64,000 bases of DNA from Anaerolineae bacterium. GTDB taxonomy: Bacteria > Chloroflexota > Anaerolineae > DRVO01. The stretch covers positions 1 to 64,000 of the forward strand of contig JABLXR010000040.1 in the NCBI GenBank assembly GCA_013178015.1, written 5' to 3'. The notes beneath the pieces were generated by a model, which was not told the DNA's origin, searched no databases, and saw only the letters and a program-made list of their open reading frames with translations. A program made the translations under genes and the position numbers. Shown piece after piece: positions 5,613 to 31,953 of the stretch (the stretch's first letter is position 1; every line of letters starts with the position of its first letter).

Positions 5613-5614
5613 GC

Positions 5615-6574: not shown

Positions 6575-6625
6575 CCGTCTGATGGTGAGGGAGACCTCTC
6601 CACCGCGTTTGAGGAAGAGAGAGCC

Positions 6626-6650
6626 CGCCATCTGGTGAAAGCAGATGGCG
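6626..6650. other. Stem-loop between kinase and GH4 genes
   Basis: An 8-bp perfect stem CGCCATCT/AGATGGCG with a 9-nt loop lies in the 144-bp gap. No T tract follows, so it is more likely an mRNA processing or stability element than a terminator. Confidence 0.35.
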
Positions 6651-6718
6651 TAGAACGGGGATCAGGTAGACGTCCGGCTCCCCCAGCTTGATGGTTGAGT
6701 TCGCCATAGGAGGCATGA

Positions 6719-8095: not shown

Positions 8096-8203
8096 AGGGG
8101 CGGCCATGGGACGCCCGCCACGACTTCTTCCAAGGAGGTGGGTGGAGCGAATCGAGCGGGAGACAAGACAGGCCGTGCGAGAGCGAAGAGAGGAGGTGCG
8201 ACG

Positions 8204-9619: not shown

Positions 9620-9634
9620 CTCGACCGCCCGCCC

Positions 9635-9668
9635 GGTGACGCGGCTTCCCCGGCGTGGCCGCGTCACC
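9635..9668 (+). other. Stem-loop between binding protein and permease genes
   Basis: GGTGACGCGG (9635-9644) pairs perfectly with CCGCGTCACC (9659-9668) in the 97-bp gap. There is no T tract. A hairpin at this place is expected to protect the binding-protein mRNA 3' end or attenuate read-through, raising binding protein over permease. A similar hairpin lies at the same junction of the second importer (19762-19790). Confidence 0.6.
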
Positions 9669-9716
9669 AGGCCGGGCCTACCGACCGGGGCGAACGCAGG
9701 GGTTCAGGAGCGGAGC

Positions 9717-10715: not shown

Positions 10716-10755
10716 CTCTCTGCGGGCCCCCGGTCGACTCGGGTAGGAGCGCGAC

Positions 10756-11634: not shown

Positions 11635-11635
11635 G

Positions 11636-11745
11636 TAGTGGGTAGTGGACAGTGGCCAGTGGTTAGTGGTGAGTGGGGCAGCGCTAACTGGCGGCCACAT
11701 CGCTCCTGGAGAACATCTGCCACTCACCACTCACCACTAACCACT
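11636..11745. repeat. AGTGG-rich inverted repeat
   Basis: A left arm of reiterated AGTGG units ends with a 19-nt segment (11658-11676) that is the exact reverse complement of 11727-11745; both arms also contain extra GTGAGTGG/CCACTCAC copies. The 50-nt loop is unique. It could form a strong hairpin after the permease gene and act as terminator or mRNA stabiliser, or be a small dispersed repeat. It lies directly before the weak TTG start of the next gene. Confidence 0.7.
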
Positions 11746-11762
11746 TCGCGGGAGCGTTTGCG

Positions 11763-16911: not shown

Positions 16912-18192
16912 ATGGCGGAGAAGCTGGCGATAGAGGGAGGGCCGAAGGCGGTCAGGGTAGGGCTAGAGGACCGCTGGCAGGTGGCGGGGGAGCGGGAGAA
17001 GGGCTACGTGAATGCGGTGCTGGAGGATCTGAGCACGGCCTACTCCCAGTTGGAGCTCTTTGAGGAAGAGTTTCGCCGGTTTGTGGGCACCAAGCACGCT
17101 TTGGTGATGTGCAACGGTACCGCCACCCTGCACTCGGCCATCTTTGCCGCTGGGGCCCGTCAGGGCACGGAGGTGATCGTGCCCTCGGTGACCTGGCACG
17201 CCTCCATCACCCCCATTTTGCACTGCGGGGCCACGCCGGTGTTTTGCGATGCCGACCCCGAGACCTACTGTGCCGATCCGGAGGATGTGGCCCGGCGTAT
17301 AACCGAGCGCACCGTGGCCATTGTGGTGACGCACGTGTATGGCAACCCGGCGGACATGGACGCTCTGCGTGACCTAGTGAAGGGCACCAGCATCAAGCTG
17401 ATCGAGGATGCTTCTCACGCCCATGGGGCCACCTGGGATGGGGCTCAGGTGGGGAGCGTGGGGGATGTGGGGTGTTTCAGTCTGCAAGCTTCCAAGGCGG
17501 TGACGGGGATCGAGGCGGGGGTAGCCACCACCGACGATGACGAGCTCTATGATGCCATGGTGGCCTTGGGCCACTATGGGCGCTGTGAGCGGTTGTTTGT
17601 GACCGAGCGGTTCAAGGAGTTGCGCAACATGGGGTTGGGCATCAAGTACCGGGCCAATCCTTTGGCGGTAGCCATGGCGAGGGCGCAGTTAGAGCGGCTG
17701 CCGGAGCTCAATGAGAAGCGGGGGGCCTGGTTTGGCCAGCTTGACCAGTTGATGGCGGGCATTCCTGGGGTAAGCGTACAGAAGACCTACGCCAAGGCCA
17801 AGCGGGGAGGGATGCTGCTTTACACTGGCCGGATAGACCCGGAGGTGGTGGGGGCGCCGGTGGACATAGTGCTTAGGGCGTTGGTGGCGGAGGGGGTGAG
17901 GACCACCCCTGGGATCACGCCCTTTGGGTATGGGGTGATGCACCTAGAGCCCTTGTTCAACCACTTCTCGTTTGAGGGGTTGGGGGGTCCGTGGGGGGAT
18001 CTGCCTGTGGGGGCGAGGCGGCCGATGAAGCGGGGGGACTTGCCGGTAAGCGAGGCCATACATGATACCGCCTTTTGGCTCACCACTCCGGTGGACCCGC
18101 CGCAGGAGTGGGTAGAGCAGACGGCCTATGCTTTCCGCAAGGTGGCCGGGCAGGGGGAGAGGCTGGCGGAGCTGGCGAAGGCGGCGGTCTAG
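16912..18192 (+). CDS. DegT/DnrJ/EryC1/StrS-family PLP aminotransferase
   Basis: A 426-residue fold-type I PLP enzyme of the sugar/cyclitol aminotransferase family, which moves an amino group (usually from Glu or Gln) to a keto-sugar or keto-cyclitol. Motifs: KHALVMCNGTATL (phosphate-binding loop), VIVPSVTWHA, IEDASHAHGA (Asp to pyridine N) and the Schiff-base Lys195 in SLQASKAVT. GGGGAGGA (16901-16908) fixes the start at 16912; 27 upstream codons are open but unsupported. It opens the long operon, ahead of an ABC importer. A second family member is at 23334. Direction (synthesis or breakdown of an amino sugar) is not known. Confidence 0.9.
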   Translation: MAEKLAIEGGPKAVRVGLEDRWQVAGEREKGYVNAVLEDLSTAYSQLELFEEEFRRFVGTKHALVMCNGTATLHSAIFAAGARQGTEVIVPSVTWHASITPILHCGATPVFCDADPETYCADPEDVARRITERTVAIVVTHVYGNPADMDALRDLVKGTSIKLIEDASHAHGATWDGAQVGSVGDVGCFSLQASKAVTGIEAGVATTDDDELYDAMVALGHYGRCERLFVTERFKELRNMGLGIKYRANPLAVAMARAQLERLPELNEKRGAWFGQLDQLMAGIPGVSVQKTYAKAKRGGMLLYTGRIDPEVVGAPVDIVLRALVAEGVRTTPGITPFGYGVMHLEPLFNHFSFEGLGGPWGDLPVGARRPMKRGDLPVSEAIHDTAFWLTTPVDPPQEWVEQTAYAFRKVAGQGERLAELAKAAV

Positions 18193-18325
18193 CGATCGAG
18201 CCCGGCGGGGATATCGGGTGGGAAAGGAGGTGTGAGCGGGGATCGAGCCGTACGTCCTGGAGTCGTAGCTATGGCGGTGCACTGCAGCCGACGTAGGTCG
18301 CCGAAAGGGTAAGGAGGGCAGGAAG

Positions 18326-19732
18326 ATGGAATCGGCCAAGATGTATTCACGGCGTAGGGCGCTGAAGATCGGTGTCGGCATGCTCGGCTTGGGTGGTCTG
18401 GCGGCCTGTGCGCCCGCGGCCACACCCCAGGTGGTGGAGAGGGAAGTCACTGTCATAGTCCAGGGGACCCCGCAGATTGTGAAGGAGACCGTGGTAGTGC
18501 CGGCTGCTGCCGGTCCTGTCAAGATCCGCTGGGCGGTGAAGACCTGGGACGAAATGCGGATGAAGGTCATTGACGACTGCGCCCAGGAAGTCATGAAGCT
18601 GGACCCAGGTATCGAGGTAGTGGTAGAGCCCAGGCCGGGCCAGGGCTATTGGGAGAAGCTGCAGACCGAGTTCGCCGGAGGTGTGGCTCCGGACGTCACG
18701 TACAACCAGATGAACTGGGTCATCCCGGGGGCGGCCAGGGGGATGTTCCTGGACATCAAGCCCTTCATGGAGCGGGACAACTGGACCCTGGAGGACTACT
18801 GGTACCCCATGGACCTCGAGTGGGAATGGCAGGGCGGGCTGTACGGCACGCTCATGGTGGCTAACGGCCAGACCCTGTGCATCAGCACCACGCTCATGGA
18901 GCAGGCTGGCCTCGATCTTCCGGACGAGGACTGGACCTGGGACGACCTCCTGACCTACGCCAAGGCGATGACGGACAAGGAAGCGGGCCAATGGGGCCTC
19001 CTTGGGGCAAACTCCGCACCACCATATTGGTTGTGTGCCTTCATCCACGGCGCTGGTGGGTCAGTGCTCAATGAGGACTACAACAAGTGCACCATCACTG
19101 ATCCAGTGGCAATGGAGGCAATCCAATGGGTCGCCGACCTGATGTTCACACATGAAGTACTTCCCACACCGGCTCTGCTTGAGGGTATGGAGAGTCCGTT
19201 CCTAACCGGCAAGGCCGGTATGTCTTTTGAGCTGGTGACCGCGGCCAGTACCATCCGTCCCACTTTCGAGGAGCAAGGCTTCGGTTGGCAGTACGTGCAC
19301 ATGCCCAGGCACCCCGTCACAGGGCTTCGTAGCGTTCAGATGGGATCGAACGTCTGGTCCATCATCGCTAACACGCAGTTCCGCGACCAGGCCTGGACTC
19401 TGTGCAAGTACCTCGGGGATGTCGAGGGTCAGAAGCGGTGGATGCTGTTTGGGCTGCCCGGCCAGCGGAGCCTGATAGCGAGTGACGAGTTCCTGTCCAT
19501 GTGGGGTGATCAGGACATCACCATCCCCATTGCAGACCTCGACTGCTGCGGTCACGATTACTACCCGACCTCTGACTGCGGCGAGTGGTGGGGTCTGATG
19601 AACCAGGAATTGAGCGTCATCTGGACGGGCGAGGCCACAGTGGAAGAGGCCTGCCGGCGCGCTTGCGAGAAGTGCGATGAGGTCTTCGCACGTCGGCCTC
19701 CGCACTACGAGAAGAACCCTCAGGTGAGTTAG
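18326..19732 (+). CDS. ABC sugar transporter substrate-binding lipoprotein
   Basis: A 468-residue solute-binding lipoprotein. The Tat-like YSRRRALKIG and lipobox LAAC give lipidated Cys28. The linker (VEREVTVIVQGTPQIVKETV) is of a kind common in Chloroflexota binding proteins. The mature part has VAPDVTYNQMNW and KPFMERDNWTLEDY, as in family-1 sugar binders. The C-terminal third is unusually rich in Cys (DLDCCGHDYY, CGEW, ACRRACEKCDE), suggesting disulfides. The start at 18326 follows AAGGAGGGCAGGAAG. The cognate permeases are at 19816 and 20751; the ATPase is absent from the window. Confidence 0.9.
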   Translation: MESAKMYSRRRALKIGVGMLGLGGLAACAPAATPQVVEREVTVIVQGTPQIVKETVVVPAAAGPVKIRWAVKTWDEMRMKVIDDCAQEVMKLDPGIEVVVEPRPGQGYWEKLQTEFAGGVAPDVTYNQMNWVIPGAARGMFLDIKPFMERDNWTLEDYWYPMDLEWEWQGGLYGTLMVANGQTLCISTTLMEQAGLDLPDEDWTWDDLLTYAKAMTDKEAGQWGLLGANSAPPYWLCAFIHGAGGSVLNEDYNKCTITDPVAMEAIQWVADLMFTHEVLPTPALLEGMESPFLTGKAGMSFELVTAASTIRPTFEEQGFGWQYVHMPRHPVTGLRSVQMGSNVWSIIANTQFRDQAWTLCKYLGDVEGQKRWMLFGLPGQRSLIASDEFLSMWGDQDITIPIADLDCCGHDYYPTSDCGEWWGLMNQELSVIWTGEATVEEACRRACEKCDEVFARRPPHYEKNPQVS

Positions 19733-19761
19733 CTGGCCCGACGTCGCTGAGCCGGCTAGAT

Positions 19762-19790
19762 GGGGGCCCGAGCCGCGTTCTCGGGTCCCC
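19762..19790 (+). other. Stem-loop between binding protein and permease genes
   Basis: GGGGGCCCGAG (19762-19772) pairs with CTCGGGTCCCC (19780-19790) with one G-U pair and a 7-nt loop. It occupies the same junction as the hairpin at 9635-9668 of the first importer and probably sets the ratio of binding protein to permease. Confidence 0.6.
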
Positions 19791-19815
19791 TGCCCGCAGG
19801 AGTGGAGGTTCGATC

Positions 19816-20751
19816 ATGCAGGTAGCCGCCTGGCAGCCGCGGGTGCGTGGGATGTCGTCGAGCGCCAGGAGAGAGGAGTTGGAGGGGTACCTCTGCATCT
19901 CGCCCTGGCTCCTCGGCCTTCTCATCTTCACCATTGGGCCGATCCTGGCCTCGCTGTACCTCAGCTTCACCGAGTATGAGGTGGTCAAGCCGCCTGTATT
20001 CACCGGGTTGGCCAACTACGTGATGCTGGCCCGGGATGATCTGTTCTGGCAATCACTGAAGGTTACCAGCATCTATACGTTCGTGTCTGTGCCCCTCCGT
20101 ATTACCCTGTCGTTCGCCATCGCGCTGCTCATGAACCAGCAGGTGAAGTTTCTGGGGCTCTTCCGCACTGCCTACTACATGCCGAATCTGGTGCCGGCGG
20201 TGGCCTCGGCGATTCTCTGGGTATGGATCTTCCAGCCCCAGTTCGGTCTCCTCAACGGTTTCCTGCGGGGCATGGGTATAGAGAACCCGCCTCCCTGGTT
20301 GGGAAGCACCAAATGGGCGCTTCCCTCCCTCATACTCATGAGCCTGTGGGGCGTGGGCGGTCCAATGTTGATCTACCTGGCTGGTCTGCAGGGCATCCCG
20401 ACGGAGATGTACGAGGCGGCCGAGATAGACGGCGCGGGGCGAGTGTCGCGCTTCCGCCACGTAACACTGCCGCAGATGTCACCAGTGGTCTTCTTCAACC
20501 TGATTATGAGCATTATCGGGTCATTCCAGGTCTTCGCCGCCGGATACATCATGACCGGGGGCGGGCCTCGGTACGCAACCTACTTCTACGTGCTCTACCT
20601 GTACAACAACGCCTTCAGCTTCTTCAGAATGGGATACGCTTCTGCCCTGGCCTGGATTCTCGCTATCATCATCCTGTTTTTCACTGTACTGGTGTTTCGG
20701 TCATCAGCAGCCTGGGTCTACTACTCCGGCGAACTCAAGGGGAGGGCGTAG
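19816..20751 (+). CDS. ABC sugar transporter permease (UgpA/MalF type)
   Basis: A 311-residue permease with six predicted membrane helices (first about residues 31-55, ISPWLLGLLIFTIGPILASL). The ATPase-contact EAA loop reads MYEAAEIDGAGRVSRFRHV. The final helices end in FRSSAAWVYYSG. It is a close relative of the permease at 9717 but without the Gly/Ser-rich loop insert. The stop TAG shares its last base with the GTG start of the next gene, which implies translational coupling. Confidence 0.9.
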   Translation: MQVAAWQPRVRGMSSSARREELEGYLCISPWLLGLLIFTIGPILASLYLSFTEYEVVKPPVFTGLANYVMLARDDLFWQSLKVTSIYTFVSVPLRITLSFAIALLMNQQVKFLGLFRTAYYMPNLVPAVASAILWVWIFQPQFGLLNGFLRGMGIENPPPWLGSTKWALPSLILMSLWGVGGPMLIYLAGLQGIPTEMYEAAEIDGAGRVSRFRHVTLPQMSPVVFFNLIMSIIGSFQVFAAGYIMTGGGPRYATYFYVLYLYNNAFSFFRMGYASALAWILAIIILFFTVLVFRSSAAWVYYSGELKGRA

Positions 20752-21659
20752 TGGTCACGGACGAGAGGCAGATGTCGGTCTCGCGCCCTGCCGCCTACAG
20801 GCCTGCGCCATCTCTTTGGGCGCGCAAGTCGGTGCAGCGAACGGTCGGCCGGTTGGTACTCTATCCCGTTCTTGTGGGCGGAGCGGTCATCTTGTTGCTC
20901 CCGCTGGCCTGGCTGCTTTCCAGTTCGCTGAAGCCTCTAGGGCTGATCTTCGTAGTTCCTCCCCAGTGGATCCCTTCGCCTATTAGGTGGCAGAACTACG
21001 TCGAGGTGTGGCAAGCCATTCCCATGGCGCTCTTCGCCCGCAACACGATTACCATCACCTTCTTCGCTGTGCTGGGCACGGTCGCATCGGCCTCGATCGT
21101 GGCCTTCGGCTTCGCGCGGTTGCGTTTCCGGATGCGGGACGTGCTGTTCCTTGTCCTTCTCTCGACCATGATGATCCCCGGTCAGGTCACGTTGATTCCC
21201 CAGTACATACTCTTTCGCACCCTTCGTTGGCTTAACAGCTTCCTTCCCCTGATCGTGCCATCCTACTTTGGCGGAGGCGCGTTCAACGTCTTCCTGCTGC
21301 GCCAGTTCTACATGACTCTGCCTCTGGAACTGGATGACGCCGCCCGCATTGACGGATGCAGCACCTTCCAGATCTACCGTCGGATCATCCTTCCGCAGTC
21401 CAAGCCTGCGCTGGGCGTGGTGGCCATCTTCGGGTTTATGGGACACTGGAACGAGTTCTTTGCCCCCCTCATCTACCTGAACTCGACCGAGAAGTACACC
21501 CTGGCTCTGGGCCTCAACTTCTTCCGCTCGGTTGAGTACAGCGCCTGGCACCTGCTGATGGCCGCTTCCCTCATGACGGCCCTGCCGTGCATAGTGGTAT
21601 ACTTCCTGGCCCAGCGCTACTTCATACAGGGGATCGTCTTCACCGGCATCAAGGGCTGA
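20751..21659 (+). CDS. ABC sugar transporter permease (UgpE/MalG type)
   Basis: A 302-residue permease, six predicted membrane helices. SSSLKPLGLIFVVPPQW, STMMIPGQVTLIPQ, EAA loop ELDDAARIDGCSTFQIYRRI and C-terminal GIVFTGIKG match the MalG group. GTG 20751 is selected: GGGGAGGG (20739-20746) is correctly spaced and the start overlaps the previous stop by one base. The frame is open far upstream inside the first permease gene, but that is out-of-frame shadow. It completes the second importer. Confidence 0.9.
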   Translation: MVTDERQMSVSRPAAYRPAPSLWARKSVQRTVGRLVLYPVLVGGAVILLLPLAWLLSSSLKPLGLIFVVPPQWIPSPIRWQNYVEVWQAIPMALFARNTITITFFAVLGTVASASIVAFGFARLRFRMRDVLFLVLLSTMMIPGQVTLIPQYILFRTLRWLNSFLPLIVPSYFGGGAFNVFLLRQFYMTLPLELDDAARIDGCSTFQIYRRIILPQSKPALGVVAIFGFMGHWNEFFAPLIYLNSTEKYTLALGLNFFRSVEYSAWHLLMAASLMTALPCIVVYFLAQRYFIQGIVFTGIKG

Positions 21660-21752
21660 TGTCAGTCGGAGGACACCGGACAACCCCGACCCGGCCGGCA
21701 TGAGTTCGCCTGCCGCATCAGGGCATCCGGGTCGCCTTCCAGGAGCTCAAAC

Positions 21753-22526
21753 ATGACTCACCCCCTCCGCTTCCTCGACGTCAACTGCGCCATCGGACCC
21801 TACTACAACCCACCGACAGGCCACGACTGGTCGCTCGCCGGGTTGCTCGCCAAGATGGACCACCTGGGCATCGCCGAGGCCTGCCCCGCCTGCCTCCTAA
21901 GCCGCGACCTGGACCCGGCCACCGGCAACGAGTGGCTGGTCCAGCACGCCCCCGCCTCCGACCGCATCCACCCGGTGTGGACCGCCGCGCCCCACCATAC
22001 GGGCGAGTTCCCTGCCCCCGAGGACCTTCTCACCCTCATGCGCCGGCACGGCGTCCGGATGTTGCGGCTCTGGTTCTATCCCAGCGCCTTCCTGGATCGG
22101 CTGGACCTGCCCTTGCTGGGGGAGCTCTTCGATGCGCTGGCTCAGCACCGGGTCCCCCTCCTGCTCGACGTGTCGGAGCCGAACCTGCTGCGGGTCTCCG
22201 ACCTGGAGCCGGTCCTCCGCGGCTGGCCCGCGATGCCGGTGATCCTGAGCGTGCCCAAGCAGAGCCAGAACGAGCGCTGGTTCTACTACCTGTGGGAGAA
22301 GTATGACAGCTTCCACCTGGACCTGCCCGGCTACCAGATCCTGGGAGGTATCGAGGCCGTGGTGGCTCGCTTCGGCCCTGCCAGACTGGTATACGGCTCA
22401 AGGTACCCCTACTTCACCCCCCTCCAGTCCATGCTGCAGCTCATCTACAGCGAGGTAGAGGAGGAAGCCAAGAAGGCCATCGCCGGGGATACGGTGCGTC
22501 GGCTGCTGCAGGAGGTGGGGCTGTGA
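21753..22526 (+). CDS. Amidohydrolase-2-like protein lacking metal ligands
   Basis: A 257-residue TIM-barrel protein of the amidohydrolase-2 (ACMSD-like) type, about the size of its neighbour at 22523. The metal-binding D-x-H-x-H opening is replaced by FLDVNCAIG, and the late-barrel G-T-D is replaced by VYGSRYPYF, so the usual catalytic metal centre appears lost. The overall pattern (LLAKMDHLGI, MLRLWFYPS, LRGWPAMPVIL) still follows the family. It overlaps the active-looking paralogue by 4 bp (GTGA), suggesting co-translation and possibly a complex. Its function is unknown: pseudo-enzyme subunit or binding protein. Confidence 0.7.
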   Translation: MTHPLRFLDVNCAIGPYYNPPTGHDWSLAGLLAKMDHLGIAEACPACLLSRDLDPATGNEWLVQHAPASDRIHPVWTAAPHHTGEFPAPEDLLTLMRRHGVRMLRLWFYPSAFLDRLDLPLLGELFDALAQHRVPLLLDVSEPNLLRVSDLEPVLRGWPAMPVILSVPKQSQNERWFYYLWEKYDSFHLDLPGYQILGGIEAVVARFGPARLVYGSRYPYFTPLQSMLQLIYSEVEEEAKKAIAGDTVRRLLQEVGL

Positions 22527-23296
22527 GCGCCATCATGGAGCGAGCTCTGCGGGGAGAGTCGCTGGCCGGCCTCGGGCTCATTGACTTCCACGTCCACCTG
22601 GGGAAGTGGTCCGGTCTCAACATACTGGCCCACCATCCGGAGGAGATCGTACGGCGCGCTATGGCCCTCGGGCTGGAGCGCATCGTGGTCAACGGCGTGA
22701 TCCATCCCCAGCTCACGGCGAGCAACGACCTGGTGGGCGACCTGGTCCGGCGCTATCCGGGCTTCGTCATTGGCCTGGCGGTCACGAACCCCTACCAGCA
22801 CGACATGGCCCACGAGGTCCGCCGTTGCTTCGACGAGCTAGGTATGCGGGGCGTGAAGCTGCATGCTATGCATGAGACCTACCAGTCGCCGCAGCCGCTC
22901 CTCGCCTACCGGGAACAGTGGGAGAGGCTGTTCGCCTTCCTTTCCGACCGCGGGGCCCCGGTGCTCTACCACGGAATCGTGACCGAGGATATGATCCGGT
23001 CCTGGCCGGACGTGCCCTTTGTGATGGCGCACGGGGTGAGCAGCCCGGAGCAGATGGTGAGGCTGAGCCGGTACCCCAACTTCCACGTGGACACGGCCTC
23101 CACCCAGAACCCGTACTTCGCCGTGACGCGGGCGGTGAGCCTGCTGGGCGCGTCGCGCGTGATCTGGGGCACCGACGCCCCCTGGGATGACTTCGCCCAG
23201 CGGCTGGGAGTGGTCCTGGACACGGACCTGCCGGTGCCGGACCTGCTGGCCATCCTGGGCCGCAACGCTGCCCGCCTGCTAAGACTCGAGGAGTAG
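22523..23296 (+). CDS. Amidohydrolase-2-family hydrolase
   Basis: A 257-residue amidohydrolase-2-family TIM barrel. Metal ligands are visible: IDFHVHLGKW (H-x-H, strand 1), VLYHG (strand 5), FVMAHGV (strand 6) and VIWGTDAPW (Asp, strand 8). KLHAMHETY would be the strand-4 region. Family members hydrolyse or decarboxylate cyclic or acyl substrates, lactones among them. The start GTG 22523 overlaps the stop of the metal-less paralogue. In this operon it could open a sugar lactone or deacylate an N-acyl sugar; this is inference only. Confidence 0.82.
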   Translation: MSAIMERALRGESLAGLGLIDFHVHLGKWSGLNILAHHPEEIVRRAMALGLERIVVNGVIHPQLTASNDLVGDLVRRYPGFVIGLAVTNPYQHDMAHEVRRCFDELGMRGVKLHAMHETYQSPQPLLAYREQWERLFAFLSDRGAPVLYHGIVTEDMIRSWPDVPFVMAHGVSSPEQMVRLSRYPNFHVDTASTQNPYFAVTRAVSLLGASRVIWGTDAPWDDFAQRLGVVLDTDLPVPDLLAILGRNAARLLRLEE

Positions 23297-23333
23297 CCCC
23301 TTCACGGAGCGGGGCTGCAAGGAGAAAGTGACT

Positions 23334-24578
23334 ATGGCAACCGTGACGGTAATGACGGCCGAGGACCGCCGGGAAATCCTGCGCCGGGGCTCTAGCGGCC
23401 CCGTGCACCAAGGCCTCATCCCCCTAGGCGGCTGGTACGGCCAGGAGGAAATGGACGCCATCCGACAGGTGTTGGAACACGGCGCCCGCTACTGGGTGGG
23501 TTTCGGGGGCGGGCCGTACGTGTCCAGGTTCGAGGAAGAGTTCGCTGCCTACGTGGGCACCAAGTACGCCCTGGCCGTCAACTCCTGCGGCACCGGGCTG
23601 GACCTGGTGATGAAGATCCTGGACCTGGAGCCGGGCGACGAGGTGATCACTACCCCCATTACCTACATCGCCACCAGCCATGCCATCATGGCCGCCGGCG
23701 GCACCCCCGTCTTCGCCGACATCGGCGATGGCACCTTCAACATCGACCCCGAGCACGTCGAGCGCAAGATGAGCCCTCGTACCCGAGCCATCCTGCCGGT
23801 GCACAACAACGGCCTCTCGGCGGACATGGACGCCCTGCTGGACATCGCCGAGCGCCATCCTCACCCCAAGCATGGCCCGGTGCCCGTCTTCGGCGACGCC
23901 GCCCGCGCCTGCGGCGCCGGCTACAAGGACACCAAGGTAGGCAAGAGGGGCACGGCTAACGTCTTCTCCTTCCAGACCTCCAAGAACATGACCACCCTGG
24001 GTGAGGGGGGCATGATCACGACAGACGAGGAGTGGGTGGCCCGCCGCACCCGCCGGCTGCACACCTTCGGCTGGGACCGCTGGGAGGGCGAGAGCGTCCT
24101 GGTCGAGCCCGGCTTCAACTACCGCATGACCGGCATCCAGGCGGCGGTGGGCTCGGTGCAACTGGCCAAGCTGGATCAGATGAACGAGAGGCGGCGCGAG
24201 CGGGCGGCCAGGCTAACCGCGCTGTTGCAGGCGGCCGCGCCCGGCATCCAGACGCCCATCGAGCCGGAGGGGTACACCCACATCTACTACGGCTACACGG
24301 TGATGGTGCCCAAGGAGTGGGCGGGGGAGAAGCGGGACCGGTTCATCGAGCGGATGCAGCAGGACTACCAGGTGGGCGGCGTGGTCATGAACTTCGCCGT
24401 CACCAAGTACCCCATGCTGCGAAAGCTGGGCTACGACCCCCAGGACACCCCTCGGGCCCTGGAGCACGGCGACAGGCTCTTCTGCCTGCCCCTGCATCCG
24501 CAGCTGACCGACCAGGACCTGGAATACATCGCCGCCGCCGTAGGCGAGACCTTCGACAAGATGGCAATGGAACGCTGA
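23334..24578 (+). CDS. DegT/DnrJ/EryC1/StrS-family PLP aminotransferase
   Basis: A 414-residue second member of the sugar aminotransferase family. It has YALAVNSCGTGLDLVMK (phosphate loop), ITTPITYIATSHAI, VFGDAARACGAGY (pyridine-N Asp) and Schiff-base Lys217 in FSFQTSKNMTTLGEGG. It is clearly different in sequence from the copy at 16912, so it is unlikely to be a recent duplicate. ATG 23334 is preferred over GTG 23328 because GGAG at 23321 is better spaced. The final codons and stop lie inside the palindromic repeat 24566-24673. Confidence 0.9.
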   Translation: MATVTVMTAEDRREILRRGSSGPVHQGLIPLGGWYGQEEMDAIRQVLEHGARYWVGFGGGPYVSRFEEEFAAYVGTKYALAVNSCGTGLDLVMKILDLEPGDEVITTPITYIATSHAIMAAGGTPVFADIGDGTFNIDPEHVERKMSPRTRAILPVHNNGLSADMDALLDIAERHPHPKHGPVPVFGDAARACGAGYKDTKVGKRGTANVFSFQTSKNMTTLGEGGMITTDEEWVARRTRRLHTFGWDRWEGESVLVEPGFNYRMTGIQAAVGSVQLAKLDQMNERRRERAARLTALLQAAAPGIQTPIEPEGYTHIYYGYTVMVPKEWAGEKRDRFIERMQQDYQVGGVVMNFAVTKYPMLRKLGYDPQDTPRALEHGDRLFCLPLHPQLTDQDLEYIAAAVGETFDKMAMER

Positions 24579-24673
24579 TGACCCTGATACTACGCGCATT
24601 CACGCTGATCACGAAGAGATGATGGAAGATCAGCGGAGATCAACGCAGTATCAGCGTTCATCAGCGTTCCATT
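24566..24673. repeat. CTGATAC palindromic repeat overlapping a stop codon
   Basis: The left arm 24566-24591 and right arm 24647-24673 are reverse complements with one mismatch and one indel; inner segments add further ATCAGCG units. The left arm supplies the last codons and TGA stop of the aminotransferase. A related element lies at 34486-34569. It is probably a dispersed REP-like repeat and may also end transcription or stabilise mRNA. Confidence 0.7.
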
Positions 24674-24698
24674 CGCGGGGTGTCCAGGAGAGACGCCG

Positions 24699-25763
24699 AT
24701 GATCAAGACCATGCGCAGCCCGCAGTACTTCGTGGTGGGGGCCGGCGCCAGCGGGCAAGTAGGAGAACACGCGGCCCAGTTCGGCACTCGGGCCCTGGTG
24801 ATCGGGGGCAACCGTGCCCTGGAGGCGGCCAAGCCTACCGTGCTGCCCAGCCTGGAGGCCGGCGGCCTCACCTACCACCTCGAGCAGGGAGATCACGTCC
24901 GCAAGACGCTCGACTCGGTGAACCATCTGGTGGCGATTGGACGCCAGCAGAAGGTGGATCTGGTGATTGGCTGCGGCGGTGGGGCGGTGATGGACTGCGG
25001 CAAGGCCGTGGCTCACGATCTGGGGGTCCAGTATATCGCCCTGCCCACCACGGCCGGTGTCAACGCCGCCGGCACTTCGGGCGCGGGGATCGAAGGGGAT
25101 CCCGGCCCCCGGCGTCGCTGGTACCAGGCGGTGGACGTGGTCATCGCCGACACTGCCATTATCGCCCGAGCCGGCGGCCGTTACCTGGCCTCGGGCATGG
25201 GGGATGCTCTGCCCTCCAAGTACGGGGCTCAACTGGCCCAGTGGCGGGGAGCCCCGGACGTCACCGCCAGCCGGCTGGCCTTCGCCCGCCTGTGTTCGGA
25301 TACGATACTGGCCGACGGCGCGCGCGCCTATCGTGCCTGCCAGCGGGGCATGCCCACCGAGGAAGTGGATCGGGTGGTCGAGGCAGTCCTCTATCAGTCT
25401 GGGATGGGGGGCTTCGGCATGGGGGGTGACCACGTGCTGCATCCGGCTCGGATGCCGGGCGCCCGGGCAGACGTCATCCACGGAGAGTGGGTGGCCTTCG
25501 GTCTGCTGGTGCGGGTGGTACTGGGAGGTGAGTTCAGCGAGGATCTGCCCGCCCTGATCGCCTTCGATCGCTCGGTGAACCTGCCTACCACCTTCGCCGA
25601 CTTCGGGCTGCACGACCCAGGCTGGCCCGACGTGCTCGAGGAGGCACGCCGGATCGTGGGGCCGGCGGGGCAGGCGGACTACGGCATTGGCCGGCCGGTG
25701 ACGCCGGAGGACGTGTGCGAGGCCATGTTCGAGGTGGACTACCTGGGGCGGACCCTGGCCTGA
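24699..25763 (+). CDS. Iron-containing alcohol dehydrogenase / glycerol dehydrogenase-like
   Basis: A 354-residue member of the dehydroquinate-synthase-like superfamily, GldA branch: NAD(P)-dependent oxidation of a polyol or reduction of a keto group. The Rossmann part has ALVIGGNRALE and the dinucleotide loop GCGGGAVMDCGKAVA. ALPTTAGVNA follows, then metal-site Asp in SGMGDALPSKYGA and candidate His ligands in GGDHVLHPARM and IHGEWVAFG. GGAG upstream fits the start. Between an aminotransferase and hydrolases it could make the keto substrate that the aminotransferase uses. Exact substrate unknown. Confidence 0.85.
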   Translation: MIKTMRSPQYFVVGAGASGQVGEHAAQFGTRALVIGGNRALEAAKPTVLPSLEAGGLTYHLEQGDHVRKTLDSVNHLVAIGRQQKVDLVIGCGGGAVMDCGKAVAHDLGVQYIALPTTAGVNAAGTSGAGIEGDPGPRRRWYQAVDVVIADTAIIARAGGRYLASGMGDALPSKYGAQLAQWRGAPDVTASRLAFARLCSDTILADGARAYRACQRGMPTEEVDRVVEAVLYQSGMGGFGMGGDHVLHPARMPGARADVIHGEWVAFGLLVRVVLGGEFSEDLPALIAFDRSVNLPTTFADFGLHDPGWPDVLEEARRIVGPAGQADYGIGRPVTPEDVCEAMFEVDYLGRTLA

Positions 25764-25792
25764 TCTGCGGGTCGCCACTTCAGGAGGAGAGA

Positions 25793-26893
25793 GTGGAAAG
25801 ACGGGAGGTGCCGGGCGAGTTCCGGGTGATCAAGTATGAGGTGCCTGACTTCCGGGGCGATTACCACTGCATGGACTACGGCGACCCCAACGACGCTCGA
25901 ATGGTGGCGCTAAGGGACGAGTTCGGGCTCGAGGCGGTAGTGGCGGGCGTTGAGACGGAGTTCGAGGGGTTCCTGGCCCTCAAGCGCTGGGTGCGCTCTC
26001 GCTGGGATCACGGCTACTCCCACCACAGCGTCGAAGTGAAGGATGGCCTGGACATCCTGCGGCAGGCGGCCAGGGGAGCGCAGTTCGCGTGCGGGCATTA
26101 CGCTCGCACCTTCGTGGATTGCGCCTGTGCTCTGGGCTGGCCGGCCCGGGTCATCGGCATCTGCATCGAGCACGGCGAGTACCCTCGGGACTACAATGTG
26201 GGCAATGTCGGGCACAGCGTGGCGGAGATCTGGTCCAACGAACACCGCAAGTGGGTGGTTATGGACCCGGACGTCAACGTCTACTACCGCCGCGACGGCG
26301 TACCCCTCAATGCGCTCGAGATACGGGATGCCTGGTTGCGCCGCGAGGCAGACCAGGTGGAGATGATCCAGGACGAGCCGCTCTTCGTCATTCCAGGAGA
26401 GCGAGCTCTCCACGAGCTCAAGCGAGACGGGGCATACAGCTCCTGGACGCTGGAAGCCCTTCCCCTGCTCTTCGAGCGCTTCGGCAGGCATCGGGTGATG
26501 GACTACTACGCCCGGGTGCTGATCAACGGCTGGGAGTGGGTGGACGAGCGGGTGTTGCCCACGTTCATCAGCCACTTCAGCCCTCATGCGGTGAAGCCCA
26601 CCGGCAACCCGGACCACCTCTACTGGAGCCTGAACCTGGTGCGTTTGGCGGCTACCCCCAGTTGGGAGGGAGGGCAGTCCCGGCTCAGGATCGAGCTCGA
26701 GCACTGCATGCCCTACTTCGACCACTACGAAGCCCGACTCAATGGAGATGGGTGGCTCCGGGTCGAGGAGTCGTTCGACTGGCCCATGCATGAGGGGGTC
26801 AACCGCCTGGAGTGCCGGGCGGTGAACGTACGGGGGCGGCCGGGGCCGGTGAGCCGGATGGACGTAGCCCACGCTCGCGCGCTGGAGTGGTAA
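25793..26893 (+). CDS. Transglutaminase-fold protein, cytoplasmic
   Basis: A 366-residue protein with a transglutaminase-like cysteine protease core. The triad is visible: Cys100 (FACGHYARTF), His141 (NVGHSVAEIW) and Asp158 (VMDPDVNVYY). There is no signal peptide or membrane segment, so it would act in the cytoplasm. The C-terminal ~120 residues form a beta-rich domain. GTG 25793 follows AGGAGGAG. The next gene begins 1 nt after the stop. Family members cleave or transfer amide bonds; the target here is unknown. In-operon C45 and amidohydrolase genes also suggest amide chemistry. Confidence 0.8.
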   Translation: MERREVPGEFRVIKYEVPDFRGDYHCMDYGDPNDARMVALRDEFGLEAVVAGVETEFEGFLALKRWVRSRWDHGYSHHSVEVKDGLDILRQAARGAQFACGHYARTFVDCACALGWPARVIGICIEHGEYPRDYNVGNVGHSVAEIWSNEHRKWVVMDPDVNVYYRRDGVPLNALEIRDAWLRREADQVEMIQDEPLFVIPGERALHELKRDGAYSSWTLEALPLLFERFGRHRVMDYYARVLINGWEWVDERVLPTFISHFSPHAVKPTGNPDHLYWSLNLVRLAATPSWEGGQSRLRIELEHCMPYFDHYEARLNGDGWLRVEESFDWPMHEGVNRLECRAVNVRGRPGPVSRMDVAHARALEW

Positions 26894-26894
26894 G

Positions 26895-27866
26895 GTGAAC
26901 GGCGGGCCTGCGCCTGCGGCTTCCGTAGAGCCCGCGTACGAGTGGACCCCAGTCACCCTCGAGGCGCCCTTCGCCCCTCGCGATGGCGCCGGGGCCCTGT
27001 CCTTCCGCGGCCGCATGTGGCTTCTGGGCGGCTGGAACCCGAGGGACAAGGTGCACTTCCCTCGTATCTGCAACAGCGAGGTATGGTCCTCGGCCGACGG
27101 GCTCGACTGGAGGCTGGAGACACCGCAGGCTCCATGGGAGGGCAGACACACGGCCGGATACGCGGTGCACCGGGGCCGGATGTGGATCGTGGGCGGCGAC
27201 GCCAACCAGGGCCACTACCAGAATGACGTGTGGAACAGCGACGATGGCATCCACTGGGACCTGGTGTGCGACCGGGTGCCCTGGGCCGATCGGGTGCTTC
27301 ACTGCACCGTGGTCCACGATGGTCGCATCTGGGTCATGGGCGGCCAGAGCATGCCCCTCAAGGTCCCTGGGCCGGATGTGTTCTACAACGACGTTTGGTG
27401 CTCTGAGGACGGAGTCGCCTGGCAGCGCATCATGGAGCACGCGCCCTGGCCTTCTCGAGGGATGATCGGAGGTAGCGCCGTGCTCCGCGGACGGATGTGG
27501 CTGTTGGGAGGAGGTACCTACGACACCCCTACCACGCCCACCCGGAGGTTCTACCAAGACGTCTGGAGCAGCCCCGACGGCATCGAGTGGACGAAGCACG
27601 TGGAATCGGCGTCGTGGGCGGCTCGGCAGTACCACGAAGTGGCCGTATGGGACGGGAAGCTGTGGGTGCTGGAGGGCTACGACGGCTATGGCAACCGCAA
27701 CGACGTTCACTACTCTACCGATGGCGTCAATTGGCACGAACTGCCCGGCACGCCCTGGGCGCCCAGGCACGCGGCCAGCGTGTTCGTCCATGACGGCGCC
27801 CTCTGGGTGGTCGCCGGCAACAACATGTTCTCGGACGTGTGGAAGCTGACTCGGCGCGGCGCGTGA
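26895..27866 (+). CDS. Kelch-repeat beta-propeller protein
   Basis: A 323-residue kelch propeller. About six blades each carry the pattern of an R-M-W-(L/I/V)-x-G-G strand followed by VWSSxDGxxW (for example GRMWLLGGW, GRMWIVGGD, GRIWVMGGQ, GRMWLLGGG). There is no signal sequence, so it is likely cytoplasmic, unlike secreted galactose oxidases. Possible roles are a sugar mutarotase (NanM is a kelch protein) or a scaffold. GTG 26895 begins one base after the previous stop; no strong Shine-Dalgarno is seen, which fits translational coupling. Confidence 0.85.
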   Translation: MNGGPAPAASVEPAYEWTPVTLEAPFAPRDGAGALSFRGRMWLLGGWNPRDKVHFPRICNSEVWSSADGLDWRLETPQAPWEGRHTAGYAVHRGRMWIVGGDANQGHYQNDVWNSDDGIHWDLVCDRVPWADRVLHCTVVHDGRIWVMGGQSMPLKVPGPDVFYNDVWCSEDGVAWQRIMEHAPWPSRGMIGGSAVLRGRMWLLGGGTYDTPTTPTRRFYQDVWSSPDGIEWTKHVESASWAARQYHEVAVWDGKLWVLEGYDGYGNRNDVHYSTDGVNWHELPGTPWAPRHAASVFVHDGALWVVAGNNMFSDVWKLTRRGA

Positions 27867-27912
27867 CCCGGATTGGCATGCCCCGGCGACCAGACCATCC
27901 GCGGAGGTGACC

Positions 27913-28830
27913 ATGAAGGTGGCACTGCACTCGATCAGCTATGCCGGCCTGTTCTATCGGGGGCCGGGCTTGAGCCTGGAGGAGATCATACCCAAGGCGG
28001 CCGCCCTCGGCTATGAGGGAGTGGAGGTGATGGGCAAAGCACCCGTGTGCTCGCCCTTCGACTTCGACGAACGGCGGGCGCAGCGGGCGGTGGAGCTGGC
28101 GCGGGAGCATGGTGTTGACCTGTGCTTCTTCGCTGGGTACTTCGACCTCAACCGCCCGGACCGGGTCGAGAGGGAGAAGGAACTCGTCTTCGCCCGCGAG
28201 AGCCTGCGGCTGGCGGGGCAGCTGGGATGCCCCTATGTCAGGGTGTACGCGGGCGGCGATCACGTGTACGAGGGAGCCACGCTCTGGCAGCAGTGGGACT
28301 GGACCATCGAGGGCATCACCAGGCTCCTTCCAGTGGCCCAGGAGGCAGGGGTGCGTTTGGCGCTGGAGGTTCACACTGGAGTGGCCCAGAACGTGGACAC
28401 CATCCGAGCCATGATGCTGGAGGTGGGGTGGGATGCGGTGGACATCTGCCTGGATGCCCCGTTGCTCTATCTGCGTGGCGAGCCCATCGCCGAATCGGTG
28501 CGCCTGTTCGGGGGCAAGATCGTCCACTCTCATGCCACCGACCTGGAGATACTGCCTCCCATGATCCGCTACCACGACGTCCGCGGGCTGGCCATGAGCG
28601 AGTCTCCCCGAGTGGCCAGCCGCCTCATGGGACAAGGCAAGGTGCCCCAGGAGGAGTTCATGCGCGCCTGCTACCAGGTGGGCTACGACCGCTACTTCGC
28701 CTACGAGGTGTGCACTCCGTTCACGGTGGAGCATCGCCCTCCGACCATGGAGGACGTGGACCGCATGGTGGCCCAGGCCGCCGGTTGGCTTAAGGACAAG
28801 CGCGATGCCATCGTGAAGGAGGCGATGTAG
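27913..28830 (+). CDS. Sugar phosphate isomerase/epimerase (AP-endonuclease-2 TIM barrel)
   Basis: A 305-residue xylose-isomerase-like TIM barrel. ALGYEGVEVMG is the first barrel signature; metal ligands are probably Glu in RLALEVHTG, Asp in DICLDAP, His in IVHSHATD and Glu in YFAYEVC. Family members isomerise or epimerise keto-sugars, keto-inositols or hydroxypyruvate. GGAGG at 27903-27907 selects ATG 27913 over the in-frame GTG 27907. A distant relative lies at 61987. It may act on the same sugar as the aminotransferases. Confidence 0.87.
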   Translation: MKVALHSISYAGLFYRGPGLSLEEIIPKAAALGYEGVEVMGKAPVCSPFDFDERRAQRAVELAREHGVDLCFFAGYFDLNRPDRVEREKELVFARESLRLAGQLGCPYVRVYAGGDHVYEGATLWQQWDWTIEGITRLLPVAQEAGVRLALEVHTGVAQNVDTIRAMMLEVGWDAVDICLDAPLLYLRGEPIAESVRLFGGKIVHSHATDLEILPPMIRYHDVRGLAMSESPRVASRLMGQGKVPQEEFMRACYQVGYDRYFAYEVCTPFTVEHRPPTMEDVDRMVAQAAGWLKDKRDAIVKEAM

Positions 28831-28831
28831 A

Positions 28832-29836
28832 TTGGAGAGCTTCAGAGGCAAAGGAGACCACCGATCGCTCGGCCGGGGCATGGGCCTCGCCTTCCGGGGC
28901 ACCATCCACCGCATTCTGGCCGAGATGAAGGTGGTGGAGAAGCTGACCCCGGTCAGTGCGGGCCGAGTGCGCCTTATGGAGGAGCGCGTGGGTCGCGCCT
29001 ACCCTCACCTGCTCGATGAGATGCAGGGGATCGCCGAGGGGGCGGGCCTGGACTATCTGCAGGTGCTGGCCTACAACTTCCTCACCTCTGTCAACTGGGC
29101 CTGCACCAATGTGGCCTTCTGCGATGGGGACCACGGGCCGATCATTGGCAAGACGAACGACATCGGCGAGGATCGGGCCTACTACCACGTCCTGGCCGAC
29201 CTGACCTTCCCCTCCGGGGCCAGGCTGTTACATTTCACCTGGCCGGGCACGATCTGGTCCAACGCTGGCATCAACTGCCACGGCATTGGCCAGGCTGGGG
29301 CCAGCGTGGGCACCGAGTCGGTGAACGGGCGAGGGCTGGAGAGTAACCTGCTCCAGAGAGTGATCCTAGAGGAGAGCACCTGTCTGGAGGAGGCGGTGGA
29401 AATCGGCATGGCCTACCCGGCCAAGAACCACGCCGCCAACATCACCCTGGCCGACAGTGAGAGCGTGGTGGTGCTGGAAAAGGGAGTGGGGGAGTCGGGG
29501 CTGCGCTTCCCTCGCGGCGAGGCCATCTTTGCCACCAACCACTGGGTCACCGGACGTATGGCGCCCGTCTGTCATTTCTCCTCGGCGGAGTTCGAGCAGA
29601 ACACTCGCGCTCGTTGGAGCAACCTAGAGCGGCTGGTGAGGGAATCACAGGGGCGGCATACGACAGACCGCATTAAGGAGATCCTCTGCGATCATGCCAG
29701 CCCCGGGGCCATATGCCAGCACGGGCCCCTCATGCACACGACCGTGGCTTACGTGCTGCAGCCAGGGCCGCGTCGCGTCGAGTTTGCCTACGGCAAGCCA
29801 TGTGAGACGGGGTTCCGTCAGTTCAGTATGGAGTAG
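28832..29836 (+). CDS. C45-family N-terminal nucleophile hydrolase / acyltransferase
   Basis: A 334-residue protein like acyl-CoA:6-aminopenicillanate acyltransferase (peptidase C45). Family members cut themselves before a Cys that becomes the N-terminal nucleophile; here the candidate is Cys91 in NWACTNVAF, after a ~90-residue propeptide. GKTNDIG, INCHGIG and FATNHW follow as in the family. There is no secretion signal. The TTG start lies 9 nt after AAGGAGG, which is at the end of the isomerase gene. It would hydrolyse or form an amide (N-acyl) bond, in line with an N-acylated amino-sugar substrate (inference). Confidence 0.8.
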   Translation: MESFRGKGDHRSLGRGMGLAFRGTIHRILAEMKVVEKLTPVSAGRVRLMEERVGRAYPHLLDEMQGIAEGAGLDYLQVLAYNFLTSVNWACTNVAFCDGDHGPIIGKTNDIGEDRAYYHVLADLTFPSGARLLHFTWPGTIWSNAGINCHGIGQAGASVGTESVNGRGLESNLLQRVILEESTCLEEAVEIGMAYPAKNHAANITLADSESVVVLEKGVGESGLRFPRGEAIFATNHWVTGRMAPVCHFSSAEFEQNTRARWSNLERLVRESQGRHTTDRIKEILCDHASPGAICQHGPLMHTTVAYVLQPGPRRVEFAYGKPCETGFRQFSME

Positions 29837-29842
29837 GCGTCT

Positions 29843-30727
29843 ATGAGCAAGGCCGTGCTCTACGTCGTAGTCAGCATGGACTGCGAGCGGGTCACCGCGG
29901 AGTCCCTCATCGGAGGGACCGAATCCTGGGATATGAGCCGCCGGGCGGTGCTCGGGCTGGCGGAGATGCTGGAGCAGGAGGGCTTTCAGGGTACGTTCCT
30001 GCCTACGCCGGATACGGCGGCGCGACAGGCATCGCTCTTCGCGGAGGTGGCCGGGCGAGGGTTCGAGGTGGGGCTGCAGTTCCACTGCCGCAGCTTCGGC
30101 GATCTCCGCTACGATCAGGTGCTGGGGCACTACAGCCGCGATCGGCAGCGGGAGATCCTCTCGCTGGCCAAGGACGCTTGGGAGCAGGCGCTGGGACGGC
30201 CCATGCTCACCTACCGTTCCGGCTTTCTCTCGGCCAGCGACGATACCTTCCCCATCCTAGCTGAACTAGGGGTGAAGCAGACCTCCTGCAGCAAAGCCGG
30301 TCGGTATCGGCCTGACATCGGGGCCCGCTGGCTGGGGGCTCTGCCGTACGCCCACCGGGCCAGCGCCACTTGCCGTCTGGAAAGCGGGGACCTGGACTTG
30401 GTGGAGGTACCGGTTTCGTCTCACCCAGGGGAGAGGTTCTCTCTGGAGCCGCGGTTCGACCCCAAGGACCCCCGGCCCGATAGCGCCTACGCCCCGGAGG
30501 TGTACACCGGGATCGTGGACGCGTGCCTACACGAGATGGCGCTGCTGTCGCCCAAGGTGGCCACTTTCGTCATCCTCACCCACAACACGCTCGACTACGG
30601 GTCCAGCGAAGAGCCCCGGCGGGCACTCATGCTGGGGATGCTGCGCCACCTCAAGGCCAAGCAGGAACAGGGCTGGACTCTGGTGCCGGCGGGCCTGGGC
30701 GACGTGCGCAGGGCTCTGCTGGGCTGA
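29843..30727 (+). CDS. Polysaccharide deacetylase-fold protein
   Basis: A 294-residue carbohydrate-esterase-4 (NodB)-like barrel. Metal or base Asp is in VVVSMDCER; GFEVGLQFHCRSF is where the H-x3-H motif belongs but only the first His is present; TYRSGFLSA is the R-x-G motif; ILTHNTLDYG carries the late His. There is no signal peptide, whereas peptidoglycan or chitin deacetylases are secreted, so a small intracellular N-acetyl substrate is more likely. The partial metal motif makes activity uncertain. The stop overlaps the next start by one base (TGATG). Confidence 0.8.
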   Translation: MSKAVLYVVVSMDCERVTAESLIGGTESWDMSRRAVLGLAEMLEQEGFQGTFLPTPDTAARQASLFAEVAGRGFEVGLQFHCRSFGDLRYDQVLGHYSRDRQREILSLAKDAWEQALGRPMLTYRSGFLSASDDTFPILAELGVKQTSCSKAGRYRPDIGARWLGALPYAHRASATCRLESGDLDLVEVPVSSHPGERFSLEPRFDPKDPRPDSAYAPEVYTGIVDACLHEMALLSPKVATFVILTHNTLDYGSSEEPRRALMLGMLRHLKAKQEQGWTLVPAGLGDVRRALLG

Positions 30728-31953
30728 TGGCGGCGACACCCGACCCCCTGGAGACAGCTCGCAGCTACTGGGACCGGATCCGAGGGAGGTATCCCGAAGT
30801 GCGGGCGCTGATCCTGCGGAACCCGCTGGCGGACTTCGTTCCCGGGATCAGCGACCTGGACCTGCGCCTGGTGGCCGATCCCGACCCGGAGGGGGACTGG
30901 CAGGCACTGACGGAGGCTGTCGCAGAGGTGCATCTAGAGCGACTGAGCGAGGGCCCGGCGATGTGGCGCCTGCTGGAGCACCCTCCTGGCGCCTGTGTCA
31001 CCTTGGGCGAGGCACTGAGTTCGCAGCTGTTCCATCCGGAGATGCGCCAGTGGCAGCGTTGCTGCGGCGACGCTGCCACGCTCGACCTGCTCGAGGACCA
31101 CATCGCCACCGCTCCCTGGTCCGCGCAGGACGATCTGTACTGGGAGCGACGGTTGCGCGGATATCTGGGCCCCTGGGGGCCGCCTGAGGATCGGATCAAC
31201 CTCGCCGCAGGCATGGGCAATCGGTACCGGCTCCATGCCCTCCTGATGCTGCATACGCTGCCTGCCCTCCAAGCGGCCTATTGCCTGCTCCACCAGAAGG
31301 CGGTTCCGGGCAAAGCGGCGGCGCTGAAGGCATGGCAAGCCCTCAGGCCAGGTGATCCGCTTCTGACCGAGCTGGCGGATATGCTGGCAACGGGCTTCAG
31401 GAGCCACCTGCACATCCGGCCGGAGGCTTTGGAGGCACTGCAGGGGCGCTGTCGTCGCCTGGTGGACGAGGTGGCCGCCGAGGCCCTGAAGCGCGGCTCA
31501 CAGCGCGGCCCCGAGAGACCTGCCGGTGACGGGGCTCATCAGCCTGTTCTGGACCTCTTCGACGCGGTGCGGTACTCCCGGATGCGCCCGGCCCACTACC
31601 GGTCGTTCCTCCTGGCGCCCGAGGGGTTCCAGGTGGACTTCTTCCTCGTCAACGAGGTAGCCACGCTGCGCCGGTCTATTGTAGAGCCAGTCGTTAGGGC
31701 TCTGTGGTCTCCGGGCCAGAGATTGGGGACTGGCGACCGTGAGGCCGAGAGCGATCCGCTGAGGCGTCTGTGCCGGACGGGGCCCGAGGAGCGAGCGGTC
31801 ACGGCAGCGCTGATTGCCGCCCGTGCTAGCCCCTCCCCGGCCGAGGCGCGCCAGATTCTGGGGCGGCTCCTTGGCCTGTACCCCTTGTTCCACCGCGTTC
31901 TCGAGCGGGCACTGGCAGCCAACTGCTACAGCCCCCGCCCAGACTCGGTGTGA
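30727..31953 (+). CDS. Nucleotidyltransferase-like protein of unknown function
   Basis: A 408-residue protein with no family I can name. Its N-terminus has RNPLADFVPGISDLDLRLV, which looks like the G-S-x-D-L-D-L active site of minimal or aminoglycoside-type nucleotidyltransferases, with Gly-Ile-Ser replacing Gly-Ser. The rest is helical, Leu/Ala/Arg-rich, without membrane segments. ATG 30727 overlaps the preceding stop by one base, so it belongs to the operon and is its last gene. It could adenylylate a sugar or amino sugar, but only the motif supports this. Confidence 0.6.
   Translation: MAATPDPLETARSYWDRIRGRYPEVRALILRNPLADFVPGISDLDLRLVADPDPEGDWQALTEAVAEVHLERLSEGPAMWRLLEHPPGACVTLGEALSSQLFHPEMRQWQRCCGDAATLDLLEDHIATAPWSAQDDLYWERRLRGYLGPWGPPEDRINLAAGMGNRYRLHALLMLHTLPALQAAYCLLHQKAVPGKAAALKAWQALRPGDPLLTELADMLATGFRSHLHIRPEALEALQGRCRRLVDEVAAEALKRGSQRGPERPAGDGAHQPVLDLFDAVRYSRMRPAHYRSFLLAPEGFQVDFFLVNEVATLRRSIVEPVVRALWSPGQRLGTGDREAESDPLRRLCRTGPEERAVTAALIAARASPSPAEARQILGRLLGLYPLFHRVLERALAANCYSPRPDSV

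Follow-up and report, generated by a model that had tools for sequence, protein, structure and literature searches.

The window analysed here is a stretch of 64,000 nucleotides (positions 1 to 64,000 of the forward strand) of contig JABLXR010000040.1 from an Anaerolineae bacterium (NCBI GenBank assembly GCA_013178015.1; GTDB lineage Bacteria; Chloroflexota; Anaerolineae; DRVO01), and it is part of an 81-kb contig in an assembly of 4.6 Mb. We examined an operon at positions 16912-31953, which an initial annotation, made from the sequence letters, had described as a candidate amino-sugar or N-acyl-cyclitol pathway. Analysis of the open reading frames (ORFs) in the window showed that this region is filled by 14 ORFs, designated g1 to g14, all on the + strand. 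The intergenic distances in the order from g1 to g14 were 133, 83, 2, 93, -4, 31, 120, -4, 1, 40, 1, 6, and -1 bp, so that the fourteen-gene same-strand cluster of the initial annotation was confirmed, with gaps of -4 to 133 bp. The GC content at third codon positions was 0.78-0.91 across all 14 ORFs, a coding-type codon composition. A histidine kinase gene lies upstream on the opposite strand, and 442 bp separate the end of the operon from tRNA-Val and a threonyl-tRNA synthetase-like gene. Families were assigned with Pfam, NCBIfam, and PADLOC profiles and with Foldseek on predicted structures. The Pfam and NCBIfam results agreed with the enzyme families named initially, except that two amidohydrolase-fold genes were present instead of one and that a Kelch protein (26895-27866) had gone unmentioned. 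It had also been stated that none of the hydrolases is exported; indeed, inspection of the 14 operon proteins revealed a signal peptide (Tat/lipobox) only in the binding protein g2.

The central part of the operon begins with an aminotransferase and a dehydrogenase. The product of g7 (23328-24578), termed DegTb, matched the DegT/StrS family profile (Pfam DegT, 1e-97), and its pyridoxal phosphate (PLP)-lysine motif, FSFQTSKNMT, aligned with the lysine of ArnB. ArnB was the best solved match in the PDB, and NtdA was also among the PDB matches. In a DegT tree, the module DegTs fell into one subfamily together with some DegTs from outside the module. The Gln preceding the PLP lysine was weighed as an indicator of cyclitol substrates and then abandoned, since of the solved chains compared only 8gyh has it, which gives no discrimination by substrate. 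The next gene, g8 (24699-25763), encodes a polyol dehydrogenase of the GldA type using nicotinamide adenine dinucleotide (Fe-ADH/GldA), whose match to the glycerol dehydrogenase subfamily (3e-59) was under the curated cut-off. Alignment by inspection showed that the usual Asp and His metal positions, which we take to be the ligands as in GldA, are kept.

Subsequently, the genes expected to act on amide bonds were characterised. The product of g9 (25760-26893), termed TG, is an enzyme of the transglutaminase fold (Transglut_core, 1e-8) whose C-terminal part is long. Its Cys111, His152, and Asp169, corresponding to the triad of the transglutaminase-like superfamily, were invariant in eight sequences. 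Another protein with a transglutaminase domain (Transglut_core + DUF4129), unrelated to TG, is encoded downstream at 40066-42279 of the window. The product of g12 (28832-29836) belongs to the C45/AAT autoproteolytic acyltransferase/hydrolase family (C45_proenzyme, 148.7 bits; cut-off, 85). It contains an invariant C91-T-N, in which the processing Cys is the predicted N-terminal nucleophile at the start of the mature chain, and it matched the acyltransferase structure 2x1d. The product of g13 (29843-30727), termed PDA, gave a weak deacetylase-fold signal in Pfam and a clear one by predicted structure (predicted local distance difference test score, pLDDT, 76; predicted template modelling score, pTM, 0.81). 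Foldseek matches of this model were 3rxz (E value, 1.6e-9), ArnD, and PuuE, as well as CE4 enzymes; hence, PDA is assigned to NodB/CE4 by its predicted fold only. At the metal site, D-C replaces D-D, and D13, C14, and H247 were invariant in the family alignment. The HxxxH pair of the NodB/CE4 metal motif is not present in PDA and was variable across its family.

The last gene, g14 (30727-31953), encodes a protein termed NT, which represents a module-specific family with the invariant motifs PGxSDxDxR, LEHPPG, and ExRxW. Compared with the ANT/Lnu motif GSxxxGxxSDxD, the SDxDxR part is present and the GS is absent. NT showed no significant match in Pfam, NCBIfam, PADLOC, or the PDB, its predicted structure was poor (pLDDT, 52), and a fold search with that model returned no match. 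Because of the poor model and the empty fold search, the term nucleotidyltransferase-like in the initial annotation is borne by the SDxD motif alone, with no family or fold match behind it. A role in defence was considered and rejected, since the PADLOC scan gave no defence link and the partners were lacking.

We then compared these genes with those of other genomes. In a member of the sister genus RSWS13 (an Anaerolineae bacterium of the same family; contig JAPWUW010000002.1), seven contiguous genes were found in the order DegTb-GldA-TG-PDA-NT-AHa-AHb, where AHa and AHb are the amidohydrolase-fold proteins described below. The identities were 75% (DegTb), 67% (GldA), 59% (TG), 64% (PDA), 37% (NT), 65% (AHa), and 58% (AHb). 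Genes corresponding to g1-g4, Kelch, the TIM barrel protein, and C45 lie outside this block, and an importer with a DegT is located about 7 kb from it. TG is rare: among 249 genomes of the class, two had it at an E value of 1e-20. In the two genomes examined from genus g194, which belongs to another Chloroflexota family, DegTb (51-53%), GldA (43%), PDA (33%), C45 (about 30%), NT (32-35%), and TG (33%) were encoded in a stretch of about 11 kb, and a sodium:solute symporter comes next; the C45 relatives (28-32%) sit between PDA and NT in loci L041 and L042, and an amidohydrolase is also near the core in L041. NT was detected in 6 of 400 sampled Chloroflexota genomes, namely that of the window and five of g194, and was always beside PDA; in all five g194 genomes the two lie about 1.5 kb apart on the same contig. 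A second arrangement, consisting of binding proteins, Kelch, PDA, and TG, was observed in genome G446.

Furthermore, a named-genome scan revealed TG with 52-59% identity in another phylum, Armatimonadota (Candidatus Zipacnadia and UBA11051). Two Zipacnadia loci contain DegT (56-58% to DegTb in Armatimonadota), Gfo/Idh, TG, and PDA in that order, and also a second, larger deacetylase-fold protein. In a survey of 251 Armatimonadota genomes and fetched neighbourhoods, 11 loci had a close TG; PDA adjoined it in nine and DegT and/or Gfo/Idh were nearby in eight, both counts being lower bounds because several loci are on short contigs. The Gfo/Idh protein, nearest to inositol and xylose dehydrogenases, takes the position of the dehydrogenase and is unrelated to GldA. 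As both are polyol/sugar dehydrogenase families, the redox step appears to be kept while the gene is replaced. Both families also suit a substrate in free form (sugar, polyol, or cyclitol) better than a nucleotide sugar, and the initial reading is supported in this respect. The recurrence of the gene set is far beyond chance adjacency. The initial annotation had named a non-conserved neighbourhood, together with transcripts split between genes, as a refutation; since the core recurs in Chloroflexota and four of its steps recur in Armatimonadota, this refutation fails.

Two further observations were made at these loci. A large protein of about 590 amino acids adjoins the core in L038, L039 (where it is split), L041, L084, and L090; its second half has the deacetylase fold, and the L041 copy had no Pfam match. 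In addition, loci L094-L099 of Armatimonadota contain a remoter TG family (about 28-30%) with ORFs of 440-700 amino acids, some of which are near Gfo/Idh or DegT.

The first part of the operon is related to uptake. The product of g1 (16912-18192), DegTa, is another DegT/StrS-type aminotransferase (Pfam DegT, 7e-81), located outside the cross-genome core. It is followed by g2 (18326-19732), a sugar-type binding protein of the CUT1 family (SBP_bac_1, 7e-23) with a Tat/lipoprotein signal (RRRALKIG...GLAAC), and by the permeases g3 (19816-20751; MalF/UgpA-type; BPD_transp_1, 3e-18; UgpA-type, 1e-30) and g4 (20754-21659; MalG/UgpE-type; UgpE-type, 2e-35). An arabino-oligosaccharide-binding protein was among the nearest solved chains of g2, as a weak match. 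The operon thus holds the binding protein and two permeases of a CUT1 importer; no ATPase gene follows g4 or occurs elsewhere in the operon, and two MalK-type ATPases are encoded elsewhere in the genome. Several paralogous operons in the same genome hold a CUT1 importer, a DegT, and AHa/AHb. In one of these, on contig G000:C27, the DegT gene (L111:11080-12359) shared 94.6% DNA identity with g1 over 1280 bp. The protein identity is 97%, and the DNA similarity stops at the gene borders, which points to a recent gene copy or gene conversion. The importer of that operon seems to be accompanied by GH4-like and MTTB-like genes, as judged by eye from their resemblance to genes in the window. Another sugar-type cluster, encoded at 5399-13172 on the strand of the operon, comprises a PfkB kinase, GH4, a binding protein, two permeases, and a methyltransferase of the MTTB superfamily.

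The amidohydrolase pair AHa and AHb is encoded by the overlapping genes g5 (21753-22526; Amidohydro_2, 8e-8) and g6 (22523-23296; Amidohydro_2, 3e-25). AHa is of the amidohydrolase fold, and alignment showed that HxH is absent from it, as are the later His and the Asp among the ligands. In its family, HxH was absent in all 13 aligned members and the later His was missing, and the Asp was retained in just two. On the other hand, the ligand set of metal-dependent amidohydrolases, i.e., HxH, two later His, and Asp, was present in all aligned members of AHb. Seven AHa-like genes are present in the genome. AHa and AHb were adjacent in nine of the 11 further loci fetched, in two of which they form a single ORF (L112:9935-11506 and L114:9580-11217). 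These fused ORFs argue for one complex of an active and an inactive barrel. Such a pair, duplicated several times in one genome, would be a general feature and could explain many unannotated uptake operons.

The genome repeats one type of uptake operon, and the copy examined here comprises the importer, DegTa, and AHa/AHb. Taken together, these findings suggest two units, namely a cross-genome core (g7, g8, g9, g13, and g14, joined by g12 in a single other lineage) and a unit for uptake (g1-g6); g5-g6 also travel with the core in RSWS13. The remaining two genes are accessory. One is g10 (26895-27866), which encodes a Kelch beta-propeller (Kelch, 8e-23) that is cytosolic by sequence and has a relative (38%) near a PDA-TG pair in L050. 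The other is g11 (27907-28830), encoding a xylose isomerase-like TIM barrel protein of the keto-sugar epimerase/isomerase type (AP_endonuc_2, 3e-32; fructoselysine 3-epimerase-like, 4e-11). A PDB sequence search with g11 gave no match, and its relative (48%) in L092 adjoins a DegT and lies about 2.3 kb from TG.

From these features we infer the substrate class, the order and direction of the steps, and the roles of NT and Kelch. We tentatively propose, with confidence just short of even, that the operon serves the import and processing of an N-acylated amino-polyol, either an amino sugar or an aminocyclitol, which carries no nucleotide; breakdown or salvage would be the likelier direction. In this scheme, g2-g4 would import the N-acylated amino-polyol, powered by an ATPase whose gene lies elsewhere. 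Amide or lactam bonds on the substrate would be formed or cleaved by TG (Cys-His-Asp), C45 (N-terminal Cys), PDA (NodB fold), and AHa/AHb. DegTb would exchange the amine for a ketone, the dehydrogenase (GldA here, Gfo/Idh in Armatimonadota) would exchange the ketone for an alcohol, and the TIM barrel protein g11 may act as an epimerase or isomerase on the keto-sugar. The direction of breakdown or salvage is favoured because importers adjoin the core in Chloroflexota, because the operon has no exporter or glycosyltransferase, and because paralogous uptake operons exist.

Several points weigh against this proposal. No importer lies next to the core in Armatimonadota and the importer varies in Chloroflexota, characterised DegT aminotransferases are mostly biosynthetic, and a breakdown route offers no obvious role for NT or C45. 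Deacetylation by PDA is uncertain since its family does not conserve the NodB metal histidines. Scans of the operon for promoters and terminators gave results at chance level, and the operon is a candidate single transcript. We hold it possible, with clearly less than even confidence, that DegT, dehydrogenase, TG, and PDA, with NT and C45, constitute an undescribed pathway of at least two phyla for forming or cleaving an amide on a free amino-polyol by means of TG and a NodB-fold enzyme of non-canonical type, coupled here to amidohydrolases as obligate pairs of active and metal-less subunits. The portable conserved core indicates that the uncharacterised TG, PDA, NT, and amidohydrolase pair work together. 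Hence, families that were an unassigned set would become a pathway of uncultured Chloroflexota and Armatimonadota that can be tested directly.

The first alternative is the reverse direction, biosynthesis, for which the stand-alone core in Armatimonadota, NT, and C45 leave room. A free polyol or cyclitol would be oxidised by the dehydrogenase, DegTb would aminate the ketone, TG and C45 would add acyl or aminoacyl groups, PDA would trim the acyl group, and NT would adenylylate for activation or self-protection, yielding a small N-acyl amino-polyol as a solute or an antibiotic-like compound. A dehydrogenase with an aminotransferase is the usual route to install an amine (PMC6668481), the Armatimonadota core is conserved with no importer beside it, NT shows a strict linkage to the module, and C45 is related to penicillin acyltransferase. 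However, Pfam and NCBIfam scans of the operon proteins found no cyclitol-forming gene, glycosyltransferase, carrier protein, or exporter, importers adjoin the core in Chloroflexota, and amidohydrolase pairs occur in other uptake operons of the same genome. We therefore regard synthesis as rather unlikely.

A second alternative is that g1-g6 are an ordinary paralogous sugar-uptake operon lying by accident next to a separate pathway of g7-g14. It would explain why the unit of importer, DegT, and AHa/AHb stands alone elsewhere in the genome, why DegTa and the importer do not adjoin the core in RSWS13, and why another operon contains a gene nearly identical to g1. Nevertheless, RSWS13 likewise has AHa/AHb in one block with the core, L041 has both an amidohydrolase and a symporter close to the core, and the genes of the operon are separated by short gaps and share one strand. 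We consider accidental adjacency improbable. Finally, an Arn-type nucleotide-sugar or envelope-glycan pathway, in which an ArnB-like aminotransferase and an ArnD-like deformylase act on a lipid- or nucleotide-linked sugar, would fit the best solved match of DegTb and the ArnD match of PDA, but was rejected as highly improbable for lack of partner genes: no ArnA, ArnC, or ArnT homologue was found among the scanned proteins of the operon and related loci, the operon has no glycosyltransferase, the dehydrogenases are of free-polyol families, and the ArnB match is general for the whole DegT family.

In comparison with known systems, the proposed uptake and processing of a free N-acylated amino-polyol resembles several of them in part. 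NtdABC, for kanosamine/neotrehalosadiamine, pairs a dehydrogenase of the Gfo/Idh type with a DegT aminotransferase, and the two act on a sugar skeleton without a nucleotide. NtdC acts on glucose-6-phosphate and a phosphatase follows, and the system is not known to include amide-chemistry genes. The Arn pathway likewise brings together a DegT aminotransferase and a NodB-fold enzyme; its substrates, however, are nucleotide- or lipid-linked, it has glycosyltransferases, and PDA is without the standard metal motif. The C45 acyl-CoA:6-aminopenicillanic acid acyltransferase family shares with g12, which is above the NCBIfam cut-off, the Cys-Thr-Asn start of the mature chain, and g12 has about 30% identity to its relatives in other modules. 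In rhizopine metabolism, inositol dehydrogenase (IolG/IdhA) and the aminotransferase MosB convert inositol to scyllo-inosamine (PMC6668481), a precedent for the pair of dehydrogenase and aminotransferase on a free cyclitol. The mos/moc genes also include a catabolic locus with a binding protein, whereas no transglutaminase-fold, deacetylase-fold, C45, or NT-like member is reported there (PMC6668481), and the operon has the GldA type, the Gfo/Idh (MocA-type) enzyme being found only in the Armatimonadota version. By the features tested, the operon belongs to neither the rhizopine nor the Arn system. The initial annotation had matched the combination to no recognised pathway, and our searches of named proteins and of the literature, mostly outside subscription journals, likewise returned no described counterpart. 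We classify the gene set as a probable variant form of amino-polyol metabolism and its parts under known superfamilies.

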